Source of the DNA: Ensifer sp. IC4062
Lineage (GTDB): Bacteria > Pseudomonadota > Alphaproteobacteria > Rhizobiales > Rhizobiaceae
Reading direction: 5' to 3'
DNA: 64,000 nt
Assembly: GCF_020193575.1 (NCBI RefSeq)
Contig: NZ_JADYVD010000039.1
Coordinates: 1-64,000, forward strand
Made by a program: the position numbers and the translations under genes. Position 1 is the stretch's first letter. Every line of letters begins with the position of its first letter. Under the pieces are notes generated by a model. The model did not search any database and had not been told where the DNA came from. It saw only the letters and a list, made by a program, of their open reading frames with translations. Shown here piece after piece: positions 4,357 to 64,000 of the stretch.

Positions 4357-4367
4357 TTGCACTCATT

Positions 4368-4460
4368 CACCAGGGGGGTCCCGGCAAGGGGCTGAGATAC
4401 TGCTACAGCGCGCAGTGACCCGTTGAACCTGATCCAGTTCATACTGGCGTAGGGACGGTG
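4368..4460 (+). promoter_or_regulatory. TPP riboswitch (THI element) upstream of thiC
   Basis: All diagnostic blocks of the thiamine pyrophosphate aptamer are present in order: the GGGGTCCC-like P2 strand, GGCTGAGA at about 4390-4397, GACCCGTTGAACCTGATC at about 4417-4434, and ACTGGCGTAGGGA at 4443-4455. CACC and GGTG at the ends can close P1. Binding of TPP is expected to shut down the thi operon. About 110 bases separate the aptamer from the thiC start, leaving room for an expression platform. Confidence 0.97.
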
Positions 4461-4496
4461 CAGACGTGCGAAGGCCAGGATTCCGATTCTCCGTGA

Positions 4497-59346: not shown

Positions 59347-60534
59347 ATGCGGCAAGGCTGGAGATGGTTTGGACCGGATGCGCCGGTCACGCTGGACGAT
59401 GTGCGTCAGGCGGGCGCGACCAATGTCGTCTCGGCGCTGCATCAGGTGCCGATCGGCGAAGCCTGGACCGAAAATGCCGTGCGCGAGCGCCAGTCGCTCA
59501 TCGAGACCACGCCCGCCGGCCGCAGGGCGCTCAAGTGGTCGGTCGTCGAGAGCATACCGATTCCCGATCTGGTGAAGCGCAAGGGCGGCAAAGCAAAGGC
59601 CGAGATCGAAGCGTGGATTGCCAGTCTCGAGGCTGTCGCTTCCTGCGGCATCAAGATCATCTGCTACAACTTCATGCCGGTCGTCGACTGGACCCGCACC
59701 GAGCTCGACTTCGTCACGCCAACGGGCGCGACCGCGATGCGCTTCGACCACGAGCGGTTCGCGGCCTTCGAGCTTTTCGTCCTGAAACGGCCCGGCGCGG
59801 AAAACGAATACTCGCAGGAGGATCGCGAACGGGCCGAGGCGGTTTTCCGCTCGATGCCGGAGGAGGAGATCGCCGAAATCACCCGCATCATCACCTCCGC
59901 CCTCCCCGGCTCCACCACGGAACCACTGACGATCCCCGCCTTCCGCGAGCGCCTTGCGGCATATCAGGGCATAGACGCCGCACGTCTGCGCCAGCATCTG
60001 ATCGAATTTCTCGAGGCAGTAACACCGGCAGCGGAAGCACGGGGCGTCAAGCTGACGCTCCACCCGGACGATCCGCCGCGCCCCCTCTTCGGCCTGCCAC
60101 GCATCGCCTCGACCGAGGCCGATTATGCGGCGCTGTTCGACGCCGTGCCCTCGGAAGCGAACGGCATGTGCTACTGCACCGGAAGCCTCGGCGTCAGGGC
60201 CGACAATGACCTGCCGGAGATCGCCCGGCGCTTTGCTTCGCGCATTCATTTCGCCCATCTTCGCGCCACCACCCGCGAAGGCGATGGCCGAAGCTTCCAT
60301 GAAAGCGCGCATCTCGAAGGCGACGTCTCGATGGTCGATGTCCTGAAGGAGCTGGTCGTCGAGGACCAACGCCGCGGGCCCGAGGACACCATCGTGTTCC
60401 GCTCGGACCATGGCCACCGGATGCTCGACGATTTGCAGAAGACGGTCACGCCGGGCTATCCGGCGATCGGCCGCCTGCGCGGCCTCGCGGAACTGCGCGG
60501 CATCCTTCACGCACTAGGCTCGCCGCCGACCTGA
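59347..60534 (+). CDS. uxuA: Mannonate dehydratase
   Basis: Metal-dependent TIM-barrel enzyme of 395 aa that dehydrates D-mannonate to 2-keto-3-deoxygluconate. The four metal ligands are in place: His in LTLHPDDPPRPLFGLPRI, Cys in NGMCYCTGSLGV, His in IHFAHLRAT, Asp in FRSDHGHRMLDD. Start MRQGWRWFGPDAPVTLDDVRQAGA, in pieces, is typical. GGAGGAAC precedes the ATG. It follows the GntR gene by 57 bases. With UxaC and UxuB it completes glucuronate to KDG; KDG kinase and aldolase are not in the window. Convergent with selB. Confidence 0.95.
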   Translation: MRQGWRWFGPDAPVTLDDVRQAGATNVVSALHQVPIGEAWTENAVRERQSLIETTPAGRRALKWSVVESIPIPDLVKRKGGKAKAEIEAWIASLEAVASCGIKIICYNFMPVVDWTRTELDFVTPTGATAMRFDHERFAAFELFVLKRPGAENEYSQEDRERAEAVFRSMPEEEIAEITRIITSALPGSTTEPLTIPAFRERLAAYQGIDAARLRQHLIEFLEAVTPAAEARGVKLTLHPDDPPRPLFGLPRIASTEADYAALFDAVPSEANGMCYCTGSLGVRADNDLPEIARRFASRIHFAHLRATTREGDGRSFHESAHLEGDVSMVDVLKELVVEDQRRGPEDTIVFRSDHGHRMLDDLQKTVTPGYPAIGRLRGLAELRGILHALGSPPT

Positions 60535-60547
60535 TCGGTCGCGGCGA

Positions 60548-62623
60548 CTATTTCCGGATTTCGAGCGATGGCGGAAGAGAGTGGGAGTCGAACCCACCAA
60601 AGGCCGTCTCTCGACCCCTCCCGGATTTGAAGTCCGGACGCCCCACCGGGGACGAATCTCCTCCTGAAACATCTGCCTTGTCACCGACACCATTCGACAA
60701 ATTGCCGAAAAGGTCCAGACGGTTGCGATTGAGGCGGCGCATGTCGCCGCGCCTGAGCGTGACGCTGTGACGATCGAAGAAGTCGAGGATCTGGATCGCA
60801 ACCTTGCGGCCGTTTTCGAGCCGATCGCGGAACTGCATCGCCGTGAACCACCCCTTGTCGGCGGCCGCGCTGATCTCGGCGATCACAGCGACCATCTCCG
60901 CCACCACCTCGCGCAAGAAGAAATGATCGTGCGCCACCTCATGCACCTTGCCCATGCGGCTGCCGAGCTTCATGAGGCGGCGGACCTGCGCTTCGGGCAC
61001 CGCCAGCAATGCGGCAATGTCGCGCACGCGCGGCGGGCGGAACCGCTCGGCTCCATCAAGCATGGGTGCGATATCATGCCAGAGCCGTTCGTCGGCCAAG
61101 GTCATCGTCACCCGGTGGTCGGCAAGCCGGACCCAGGCTCCATCGAGCGCGATCGCTCCCGACCGAGCGAGTACCTGCAGGGCCGCCCGAAAAGCCGGCA
61201 CCGGCAAGCGAAGCTCCGCCTGCGTGCGCAGCCGCTCGACACCCATTCCCAAGAGGTCCGGATTGTCGGCATGGAAGGCCTTGAGCCGGGCAAGGATATC
61301 GTTGCGGAAACTCTCCCAACTCGTCTGAGACACAACGAGCGTCGTCGCCTCCAGCGACAGTTGCACGACGCCCAAGGCTTGCGCCAACGCGGGCGCTTCC
61401 GTCGCAGCGATAGCCCGGTCGCGGGCGAAGGCGCCGAGGTCGAGATAAAACGGCGGCGCGGCAAGCAACGCCTCGATCGCCCGCTTCGGCTCGGTCAGCG
61501 CGTGGCCTTCGAGCTGCGCCATCCGCTCCGGTGTGCGGCGCTTGCGCGCCGGCGCGCGCAGATCCAGGAAGCGACCGCCGCCGATCGTGCGGCGCGCGGA
61601 GGTGTCGCGAACAACAAAACGGTCGCCGGCCGCGGCCGCGATCGGCCGCTCCAGCACGAGTTGGACCAGCGTTCGCGCACCGGGCGCGACCGGCTCTTCA
61701 GCCAAAAGGACGATGCGGGCTCCGACCTCCACGGATGCATGATGAAGCCGCACGGGAAACCAGTGTCCGATCGGCTTGGGTTCCGAGCCAAGCACGCGCA
61801 GCGTCGCGTCGATTCGGCCCGTCGGTGCATGCAGGCCCGGGTCGCAGACTATGTCGCCGCGGCCGACTGCCGTTTTTGTGATGCCGGGACCGGCGAGATT
61901 GAGGGCGCAACGGTCGCCCGCACTGCCGGTTTCGCTTGGTCTGTTCTGCGCATGGATCGAACGTATCCGGGCGTTGAGGCCGGACGGGCTGATGGTGACA
62001 TGGTCCTCCACCGACACCTGCCCCGAAAGCACGGTTCCGGTGACGACAGTGCCGACGCCTTGAATGGTGAAGGAGCGATCGACCGCAAGCCGGAAGCGCC
62101 CGCTCGTCTGCCGCCGCGCAAAGCGGCGTGCCGCACCGACTACTTCGTCACGAAGTAGCGCCACGCCCCTGCCCGACACTGTCGAGACCGGAATCATCGA
62201 AATATCGGCAAGCGTCGTGCCGGCGAGCTCGTAGCGCATCTGCCGTTCGACTTCGTGAAGGCGATCCTCCGCAACGAGATCGGCCTTGGTGATGGCGACG
62301 ATGCCATGCTCGATGCCGAGAAGATCGACGATTGCCAGATGTTCGCGCGTCTGCGGCATGACGCCATCGTCGGCTGCGACCACCAGGAGCACGAAGTCGA
62401 TGCCGCCGGCGCCCGCCAGCATGGTGTGGATGAATTTCTCGTGGCCCGGGACGTCGACGAAGCCCAGGATCTCCGCGCCCTCGACCGGCATATAGGCAAA
62501 GCCGAGATCGATCGAGATGCCGCGGTCCTTCTCCTCCTTCAGCCGGTCGGTGTCGACACCCGTCAGCGCGCCGATGAGCGACGTCTTGCCATGATCGATA
62601 TGACCGGCTGTGCCGACGATCAC
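60548..62623 (-). CDS. selB: Selenocysteine-specific elongation factor SelB
   Basis: GTPase of 691 aa that carries Sec-tRNA to UGA codons with a SECIS hairpin. G1 GHIDHGKTS at residues 7-15, G3 DVPGHEKF near 59, G4 TKAD near 113. EF-Tu-like domains 2 and 3 run to about 330 and are followed by the C-terminal winged-helix array that binds SECIS. SelB homologues end soon after the block RRGDMRRLNRNRLDLFG (about residues 628-644). Here the frame continues for nearly 50 codons, through the whole tRNA-Sec gene (residues about 654-685), to a TAG at 60548-60550. No earlier in-frame stop exists. ATG 62623 overlaps the SEL1-repeat gene stop. Confidence 0.93.
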   Translation of the reverse strand: MIVGTAGHIDHGKTSLIGALTGVDTDRLKEEKDRGISIDLGFAYMPVEGAEILGFVDVPGHEKFIHTMLAGAGGIDFVLLVVAADDGVMPQTREHLAIVDLLGIEHGIVAITKADLVAEDRLHEVERQMRYELAGTTLADISMIPVSTVSGRGVALLRDEVVGAARRFARRQTSGRFRLAVDRSFTIQGVGTVVTGTVLSGQVSVEDHVTISPSGLNARIRSIHAQNRPSETGSAGDRCALNLAGPGITKTAVGRGDIVCDPGLHAPTGRIDATLRVLGSEPKPIGHWFPVRLHHASVEVGARIVLLAEEPVAPGARTLVQLVLERPIAAAAGDRFVVRDTSARRTIGGGRFLDLRAPARKRRTPERMAQLEGHALTEPKRAIEALLAAPPFYLDLGAFARDRAIAATEAPALAQALGVVQLSLEATTLVVSQTSWESFRNDILARLKAFHADNPDLLGMGVERLRTQAELRLPVPAFRAALQVLARSGAIALDGAWVRLADHRVTMTLADERLWHDIAPMLDGAERFRPPRVRDIAALLAVPEAQVRRLMKLGSRMGKVHEVAHDHFFLREVVAEMVAVIAEISAAADKGWFTAMQFRDRLENGRKVAIQILDFFDRHSVTLRRGDMRRLNRNRLDLFGNLSNGVGDKADVSGGDSSPVGRPDFKSGRGRETAFGGFDSHSLPPSLEIRK
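60569..60664 (-). tRNA. selC: tRNA-Sec (anticodon TCA)
   Basis: 96 bases including encoded CCA. The 8-bp acceptor stem GGAGGAGA (60657-60664) pairs with TCTCTTCC with one G-T wobble and is followed by discriminator G and CCA (60569-60571). The anticodon loop is CTTCAAA with TCA, between GGA and TCC stem bases. A long variable arm and the T arm GTGGG-TTCGACT-CCCAC follow. The long acceptor arm, extra arm and TCA are diagnostic. It lies wholly inside the selB reading frame, on the same strand. Confidence 0.95.
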
Positions 62624-63447
62624 GTTTCTTTCCTCTCGCTTGCCGGCTGGGACGGATCCGCCGTCTCGGACAGCGGCATCGCGGCGCGGCGCTCGGCCTC
62701 CGTCAGTTCCTCCGCGTCGAGCGCGTCGCGCACGGCGTCAAAAAACGGCGTAGCGAGCGCGCTACCGCCGTCACGTGCCCGCAAAAGCCAGGCGAAGGCT
62801 TCGACGGGATCGCGGGAGATGCCACGTCCCAGATGATAGGCGGCGCCAAGCATCGCCTGCCCGTCAGCGTCGCCGGCGCGCGCGCCAAGTCCCCACCAGT
62901 AGACCGCCTCGATCGGATCGCGCGCGACGCCGATGGCATTGTGGTAGAGCATCCCGAGCCGTGTCATCGAGGCAGCCGAACCGTTCTTTGCGGCAGCGAG
63001 TGCCCAGCGATGCGCTTCCGCAAAGTCGGGCTCGACGAGTTCGCCCTCCAAAAGCATCCAGCTCAGCATGTCCTGGGCCTCGGCGTCATCCTGTTCGGCG
63101 GCCTTACGGTAGAGCGTGGCCGCCCTTTGATAGTCCGGTGTGATCCCCTCACCCTTGAAGAGCAGCGAGGCGAGGTTGCGCTGGCCGACCGGATCGCCTG
63201 CCTCGGCGGCGAGACTGAGCCAGCGATAGGCAAGATCGGCGTCGCGGGCGACGCCCAGTCCACCGGCAAAACATGCGCCGATATTGTTCTGCGCCCGCGG
63301 ATTCCCCGCCCGCGCCAAGGGCATCCAGATCGCAAGCGCAGTGTCGTAGTCGCCGCTGCGGGCGGCGGCGAGCGCCTTCTCCATCGGTGCTTCGCCGGAT
63401 TGATCGCTCCCGGTCGTTCTTCGCAAAAGGCGGCTGAAGAGGCTCAC
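62620..63447 (-). CDS. SEL1-like (TPR) repeat protein between selA and selB
   Basis: Protein of 275 aa built of about five to six SEL1-type repeats of roughly 36 residues: GNPRAQNNIGACFAGGLGVARDADLAYRWLSLAAEAG, GDPVGQRNLASLLFKGEGITPDYQRAATLYRKAAEQ, DAEAQDMLSWMLLEG, SAASMTRLGMLYHNAIGVARD and DGQAMLGAAYHLGRGISRD (each shown from separate stretches). No signal peptide, so a cytoplasmic scaffold. It overlaps selA and selB by four bases on either side, so it is translationally coupled to both. The SEL1 repeat name is unrelated to selenium; a role in Sec metabolism is suggested only by this placement. Confidence 0.88.
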   Translation of the reverse strand: MSLFSRLLRRTTGSDQSGEAPMEKALAAARSGDYDTALAIWMPLARAGNPRAQNNIGACFAGGLGVARDADLAYRWLSLAAEAGDPVGQRNLASLLFKGEGITPDYQRAATLYRKAAEQDDAEAQDMLSWMLLEGELVEPDFAEAHRWALAAAKNGSAASMTRLGMLYHNAIGVARDPIEAVYWWGLGARAGDADGQAMLGAAYHLGRGISRDPVEAFAWLLRARDGGSALATPFFDAVRDALDAEELTEAERRAAMPLSETADPSQPASERKET

Positions 63448-64000
63448 AACAACGATCCTTCGCTCGGGGGATCGAGATGGGCGAGATTGGCGACGAAACC
63501 GTCCTCGTCCTCAAGGCAGCGCAAATCGAGGATGAGCGACCCGCGTTCGACGCGGCCGATGACCGGCATCGGCAGACGTCTCATCGCCGCGGCCAGCTCG
63601 GCAAGCGTGCCGCCGCTGCCCGAACGCGGCGTCAGGGCGAGCCCCGCGCTTGGCACCGCGGAGAGCGGCAAGGCGCCGGAGCCGATCTGACTTTCGCAAT
63701 CCACGACCGAAACGCGGAATGCGCCCTTCACCGCGCGCTCCACCAAGGCTGCCAGCCGCGCCGCCTGATCACCGATGTCCGTCTTCGGACGGGAAAGCAG
63801 CCGCATCGTCGGAAGCCGCTCGCCGAGCCGATCCGGATCGCGATAGAGCCTGAGCGTCGCTTCCAGCGCCGCAAGGCGGATCTTGTCGACCCGCAGCGCG
63901 CGCTTCATCGGGTTGCTGTTGATCTTTTCGATGAAGGCGCTGCGCCCGACGATGAAGCCGGCCTGCGGTCCACCGAGCAGCTTGTCGCCGGAAAAGGTGA
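63444..64000 (-). CDS. selA: L-seryl-tRNA(Sec) selenium transferase, C-terminal part
   Basis: PLP enzyme that converts Ser-tRNA(Sec) to Sec-tRNA(Sec). The gene runs off the right edge; about 184 residues are present. The visible sequence starts TFSGDKLLGGPQAGFIVG, containing the PLP-binding Lys (SGDKLLGGPQAG), then IEKINSNPMKRALRVDKIRLAALEATLRLY, in pieces, a family hallmark. The shorter open frame beginning at ATG 63908 is only the internal Met of SNPMKRALR. The gene overlaps the SEL1-repeat gene start by four bases, and selA, SEL1 gene, selB and selC run in one direction. Selenoprotein genes are not in the window. Confidence 0.95.
   Translation of the reverse strand, partial: TFSGDKLLGGPQAGFIVGRSAFIEKINSNPMKRALRVDKIRLAALEATLRLYRDPDRLGERLPTMRLLSRPKTDIGDQAARLAALVERAVKGAFRVSVVDCESQIGSGALPLSAVPSAGLALTPRSGSGGTLAELAAAMRRLPMPVIGRVERGSLILDLRCLEDEDGFVANLAHLDPPSEGSLL

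Follow-up and report, generated by a model that had tools for sequence, protein, structure and literature searches.

We analysed a 64,000-nt stretch of contig NZ_JADYVD010000039.1 (hereafter the window) from the 7.1-Mb genome of Ensifer sp. IC4062, a draft assembly of 175 contigs. On its minus strand, a selB reading frame runs through a whole tRNA-Sec gene (selC) of the same orientation. The genes and features of this locus are the following:

59347..60534, plus strand: uxuA (mannonate dehydratase; TIGR00695, 455 bits), convergent, ending 13 nt from the selB stop
60548..62623, minus strand: selB reading frame, 691 codons, with a GTG start and a TAG stop at 60550-60548
60548..60568, minus strand: end of SelB past the tRNA, six codons and the TAG stop
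60569..60664, minus strand: selC, tRNA-Sec of 96 nt with encoded CCA, equal to selB codons 654-685 (ARAGORN and RF01852)
60628..60630, minus strand: tRNA-Sec anticodon TCA (ARAGORN; tRNA position 35)
60664..60665, minus strand: RNase P cut expected from general tRNA biology, at the boundary of selB codons 653 and 654
60665..60727, minus strand: linker, codons 633-653, from the last SelB winged-helix domain to the tRNA (the TIGR00475 match ends at residue 632)
62620..63447, minus strand: Sel1-repeat protein gene (PF08238, 137 bits), with a 4-nt overlap between its end and the start of selB
63444..64000, minus strand: 3' part of selA, which continues beyond the window and whose end overlaps the start of the Sel1 gene by 4 nt

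The protein identity of the frame is given by the TIGR00475 profile, which matched residues 1-632 with 418 bits (cut-off 242), and by the alignment of residues 1-630 with E. coli SelB (5lzb, 614 aa). Seven Pfam models matched as well, four of them SelB-specific (winged helices and beta-barrel) and three corresponding to EF-Tu domains, two of the seven scoring below their curated cut-off. Beyond the linker the frame adds a tail of 38 residues, made up of the 32 tRNA codons and the six codons behind them; the peptide reads GGDSS...SLPP, and the tryptic peptide predicted from it in Ensifer sp. IC4062 is ETAFGGFDSHSLPPSLEIR. The coordinates and the count of about 38 codons that an earlier note had assigned to this overlap from the letters alone were confirmed with the open reading frame, ARAGORN and Rfam.

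The tRNA is a genuine tRNA-Sec by both ARAGORN and Rfam, with a RF01852 score of 75.1 bits across 60664-60573 (cut-off 47), the encoded CCA at 60571-60569 and a minimum-energy fold that is a cloverleaf with a long variable arm. The only other match to RF01852 above the cut-off in the same genome was identified by ARAGORN as a tRNA-Ser(TGA), and we rejected it as a second selC. Since 62623 minus 60664 equals 1959, or 653 codons, the first base of the tRNA is the first base of codon 654. The 5' end of the tRNA, GGAGGAG (60658-60664), resembles a Shine-Dalgarno sequence inside the selB frame. Elsewhere in the window we observed a TPP riboswitch (RF00059, 74.2 bits) at 4362-4473.

In the longer contig stretch that continues past the window, the selA reading frame matched TIGR00474 with 594 bits, and the genes fdoGHI were found just outside the window (contig C108; stretch L203), with fdoG containing an in-frame TGA within a SECIS_3 element (82.1 bits). 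The cluster therefore reads fdoG-fdoH-fdoI-fdhE-selA-sel1-selB/selC, all in the same direction. A consensus scan of 60300-61200 returned neither sigma-70-like promoters nor terminator-like sites, but shuffled sequences were expected to give only 0.2 and 0.5 of them, respectively, and rhizobial promoters may differ from the sigma-70-like consensus, so this result hardly bears on whether the transcript is shared.

The nesting of tRNA-Sec in selB across the Rhizobiales and some other Alphaproteobacteria was described in 2021 (Mukai 2021, IJMS 22:4605, PMC8124441). The same work reported related overlaps from Gammaproteobacteria and Nitrospirae, found remnants of the tRNA in S. meliloti and noted that some Ensifer have lost the overlap. 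It also hypothesised that processing of the tRNA leaves the selB message without a stop codon and so keeps SelB low, an idea that is repeated in the relevant section of a 2026 review (PMC13188914) with Mukai 2021 as its only citation there. Both the arrangement and the idea of a cut message have thus been known since 2021, and the locus in the window is an ordinary member of the published class: a SelB protein, a whole same-strand tRNA-Sec of 96 nt, a length which together with 93 nt covers most published cases, within its frame with no earlier stop, an initial Gly from GGA and a final Pro from CCA, and an fdoGHI-selAB cluster with a Sel1-like gene and a Sec formate dehydrogenase. It lacks one frequent though not required feature of the published cases, the overlap of the selB stop with the start of a downstream reading frame (ORF1/ORF2), and has the convergent uxuA 13 nt away instead. 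Our search of the literature by title, mostly outside subscription journals, found no laboratory test of the nesting.

The open frame across this single tRNA has little significance, because selC is free of stop trinucleotides in all three forward frames; what significance the nesting has comes from a comparison among 233 distinct loci. We searched for SelB in four overlapping genome sets drawn from the order (397 genomes, 30 matched), the family (394, 48 matched), the class (385, 55 matched) and the phylum (398, 52 matched), and added genome contigs (75 loci) and plasmids (8 records taken of 280 matching). The first 149 loci were reduced to 125 by removing 8 tRNA matches from the own genome, 3 loci without an aligned SelB C terminus (L046, L144 and L146) and 13 duplicates; the next 111 were reduced to 108 with the removal of L241, L243 and L261, which had no anchor. 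The matching genomes G1080, G1105, G1108, G1179 and G1341 were left out. Of the resulting loci, 69 have a nested selC; the selB stop falls within the tRNA in 6 and precedes it in 92, and 66 have no tRNA-Sec in the stretch examined. A tree of the C-terminal part of SelB included 225 of these loci. Two loci from records named Brucella oryzae and B. cytisi (L142 and L143) had selB matches fragmented across frames; in these, selB looks broken or the assembly faulty.

The tRNA was entered at codon position 1 in 68 of the 69 nested loci, the exception being L216, which enters at position 3 (phase 2). By comparison, the 92 controls with a stop before selC were distributed evenly over the three entry phases (31/31/30). 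The constancy of the phase does not reflect a constant linker: the first set of 66 nested loci had 15 linker lengths, 138-207 nt from the anchor. By parsimony on the C-terminal tree, the nested loci underwent at least 23 changes of linker length and 1 change of phase, compared with at least 38 length changes and 21 phase changes in the 54 control loci of the tree with a stop up to 60 nt before selC (Fisher p = 3e-5 for phase changes). When the six partial overlaps were added to the nested loci, the counts were 29 and 3 (p = 2e-4), and the 66 nested loci likewise had 23 length changes on an initial tree of 125 loci built from residues 1-632. When random indels of 1-2 nt were simulated in the 68 phase-0 linkers, 72.6% of the cases stayed nested, 8.8% became partial overlaps and 18.6% acquired a stop before selC; since most stayed nested, a shifted frame is not barred from the nested class by the way the class is defined.

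A second property of the nested loci lies behind the tRNA. In the 68 phase-0 loci a stop occurs 1-40 nt past the tRNA in 67 cases in frame 0, but only in 16 and 6 cases in frames 1 and 2. The same count in 91 controls gave 16, 23 and 25 for frames 0, 1 and 2, with no preference for frame 0. Stops inside the tRNA numbered 32, 14 and 30 in these controls. As a test of selection, the distribution of in-tRNA stops over the frames is of limited use, since the nested phase-0 tRNAs have no frame-0 stops by definition and the stops of the other loci come from few lineages. The variability by codon position inside the tRNA showed no third-position excess specific to the nested loci. Together, the kept frame and the stop just past the tRNA indicate that selB is probably translated through selC in the kept frame and ends just behind it. 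This frame test is what the present analysis adds to the published description, as comparative evidence which suggests that the tail is translated.

An error of sequencing or assembly that erased a stop before the tRNA might be suspected in a draft of 175 contigs, but 68 of the 69 nested loci share the frame. Among them are complete plasmid records of Sinorhizobium terangae and S. mexicanum, the closest listed plasmid records, with ~91% DNA identity. Moreover, in the nine-row tree clade of the window, seven relatives are nested too (L075, L076, L009, L010, L078, L079 and L080) and only L011 is not. We therefore consider such an artefact extremely improbable. The earlier note had stated that its proposal would be refuted if related strains had a stop codon ahead of the tRNA. 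Such stops do exist, in L011 and L082. The frame is kept in all nested loci except one. That one, L216, belongs to a small clade with L210 and L213 in which the frame from selB into selC has slipped, and which consists of one phase-0 partial overlap, one phase-2 partial overlap and the sole phase-2 nested locus. L213 and L123 are frame-shifted partial overlaps.

Our preferred reading is that one transcript serves as both SelB message and tRNA-Sec precursor, that it is read through in frame 0 and that translation competes with processing; we give it a probability of about 0.6. RNase P cleaves at the 5' end of tRNAs. At the end of the gene cluster, a single transcript would probably be at once SelB message and tRNA-Sec precursor. 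Judging from the comparison of relatives, ribosomes would pass through the tRNA sequence in frame 0, add the 38-residue tail and stop just behind it. If instead the tRNA folds, RNase P and the processing of the 3' end would cut the message at the boundary of codons 653 and 654 and remove the SelB stop codon. From what is established for tRNAs, the cut message would then be nonstop, and translation and tRNA maturation would compete for one stretch of RNA. The tail would be tolerated and not required, and it is the actual translation of SelB into and beyond the tRNA that would keep the frame. The earlier note had proposed that tRNA processing cuts the selB message within its coding region. That proposal holds up insofar as the frame appears translated through selC and a cut at codons 653/654 is expected, but its claim that one RNA cannot make both products was too strong, because the same molecule may be translated first and processed later.

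Coupling of selB to a downstream gene was tried as a full account of the kept frame and rejected, given that the frame is also kept where no reading frame lies near. Among the 69 nested loci, a same-strand reading frame of at least 100 aa has a start overlapping the selB stop in 30 (including L216), starts within 60 nt in 22 and within 100 nt in 2, and is absent in 15; these frames were called mechanically and some are surely due to chance, including the one of the window itself. A count by another criterion, with a 4-nt overlap and 60 aa in the phase-0 loci only, gave 29 of 68. The overlap with a start of a frame of at least 100 aa is thus missing in 39 of the 69, and the 15 loci without such a same-strand frame starting within 100 nt still showed at least 8 length changes and 0 phase changes. 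For the 22 loci with a start within 60 nt, re-initiation is not excluded.

We then considered whether the residues encoded by the linker and the tRNA are themselves under constraint. Within clades of relatives, dN/dS was ~0.70 for the linker and 0.21 for the SelB core, totals that include the two-locus clade L050/L053, in which the core has a pN/pS of 0.84 and is probably out of register. In a frame control restricted to pairs of equal length, the linker had a pN/pS of 0.94 in the right frame and of 1.13 and 0.63 in the wrong ones. These ratios give no clear sign of protein constraint on the linker.

A functional role of the tRNA-encoded tail, for example as an extra RNA-binding end of SelB, would explain why the frame is kept in the nested loci, and an in-frame first half of the tail does persist in five loci whose selB does not end in a complete selC (L012, L051, L014, L060 and L069). 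However, among the loci in which selC has disappeared or lies separately, the tail was lost or is hardly recognisable in L072, L028, L204, L205, L209 and L211 and is degraded in L129, the nested ancestry of these loci being read from the tree. Furthermore, the median end of the 158 non-nested SelBs, those with remnant tails counted in, is residue 644 in the numbering of the SelB in the window. This agrees with the earlier note, which had placed the end of homologues near residue 645, and its suggestion that SelB may work without the tail is supported by the many relatives in which the selB stop precedes selC or falls within it, or in which selC has gone from the end of selB. We consequently regard a functional tail as improbable.

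The loci with a remnant selC provided a further observation. In S. meliloti (L014), L051, S. chiapasense S24 (L012) and L069, the remnant in selB follows tRNA-Sec up to about nucleotide 40, in the anticodon loop, and then switches to similar sequence; the sequence of L051 is identical to that of E. sesbaniae L089. In S. meliloti RCAM1115 (L262:17000-20956) selB is followed after ~3.9 kb by a complete selC, which stands 68 nt downstream of a phage-type integrase fragment of 71 aa (PF00589) and whose D arm differs from that of the remnant. No integrase was recognised in the lists of reading frames of L263 and L265, which were inspected by eye. These arrangements suggest that a mobile element may have integrated repeatedly into the nested selC, which would have shortened SelB while preserving the gene.

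The nested state itself changed at least 17 times on the tree. Nesting was lost by in-frame stops about 4-6 times, as counted by eye on a collapsed tree, and the neutral expectation is ~10 (linker, 8.5; tRNA, 1.9), a rough figure in view of the poor alignment of linkers between clades. Since the losses are not far below this expectation, nesting would be at most weakly protected. A shifted frame thus seems to be avoided, whereas a stop before the tRNA seems nearly free. This pattern fits a tail that is translated but dispensable and lends modest support to a control device; the near-neutral rate of losses argues against an important switch. The balancing of tRNA-Sec against SelB that the earlier note had suggested would thus be no more than a possibility.

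These same results bear on the possibility that the overlap is simply tolerated. In that case, selC would have its own promoter or be processed independently of ribosomes, an ancestral loss of the stop would have given SelB a harmless tail, and frameshifts would be disfavoured only where they lead to longer or more hydrophobic tails. The nearly unconstrained linker residues, the repeated loss of nesting with retention of SelB and the appearance of in-frame stops at not far below the rough neutral rate are all congruent with it. So are the next stops of frames 1 and 2, which usually lie over 40 nt beyond the end of the tRNA (45 and 53 of the 68 loci), and the greater hydrophobicity of frame 2 (0.31, compared with 0.19 in frame 0). 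Nevertheless, frame 1 is barely more hydrophobic than frame 0 (0.225 and 0.187), which makes the harm of a shifted tail not obvious, and the tRNA closes a gene cluster with overlaps between selA, the Sel1 gene and selB; the lack of a promoter-like site in the scan is a weaker point in the same direction. We consider tolerated overlap possible, although on the unlikely side.

The common-transcript reading has to accommodate several points that count against it, namely the 17 or more changes of nesting, the phase 2 of L216, the shifted frames of L213 and L123 and the near-neutral losses by stops. A stronger version, about which we are a little more doubtful than about tolerated overlap, would make the passage of ribosomes through selC a selected device: translation would block the folding and cutting of the tRNA, slack translation would let tRNA-Sec be made, and selection would hold the entry frame and the near stop but not the linker or the tail residues. 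If it were true, the supply of the tRNA would be set by the translation of its own elongation factor.

Several known systems resemble parts of this arrangement. In E. coli, autoregulation of SelB uses a SECIS-like element in the message, and the locus in the window has an embedded tRNA instead. The two would have in common a way to keep the level of SelB in check, E. coli autoregulation being named in PMC8124441, the work that also proposed the competition of tRNA processing with SelB synthesis. The partial overlaps of Dyella and Luteibacter (PMC8124441) are similar in that selB enters selC on the same strand, but there the stop falls at tRNA positions 46-48, while the frame of the window passes the whole tRNA. 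A whole tRNA in direct orientation within a coding region is also found in the tRNA-Lys of cox1 in the mitochondrion of Armadillidium vulgare (described in PMC8124441), there in a compact mitochondrial genome and here in one of 7.1 Mb.

In summary, the locus has a whole tRNA gene within a bacterial protein gene, and one stretch of RNA thereby has two uses that cannot be met at the same moment. The frame test speaks against explaining the nesting entirely by a tail peptide or by coupling to a downstream gene. Should the competition between the two uses be regulatory, the supply of a tRNA would be linked to its carrier protein in a new manner, for which the nested selB-selC locus is a useful natural system.
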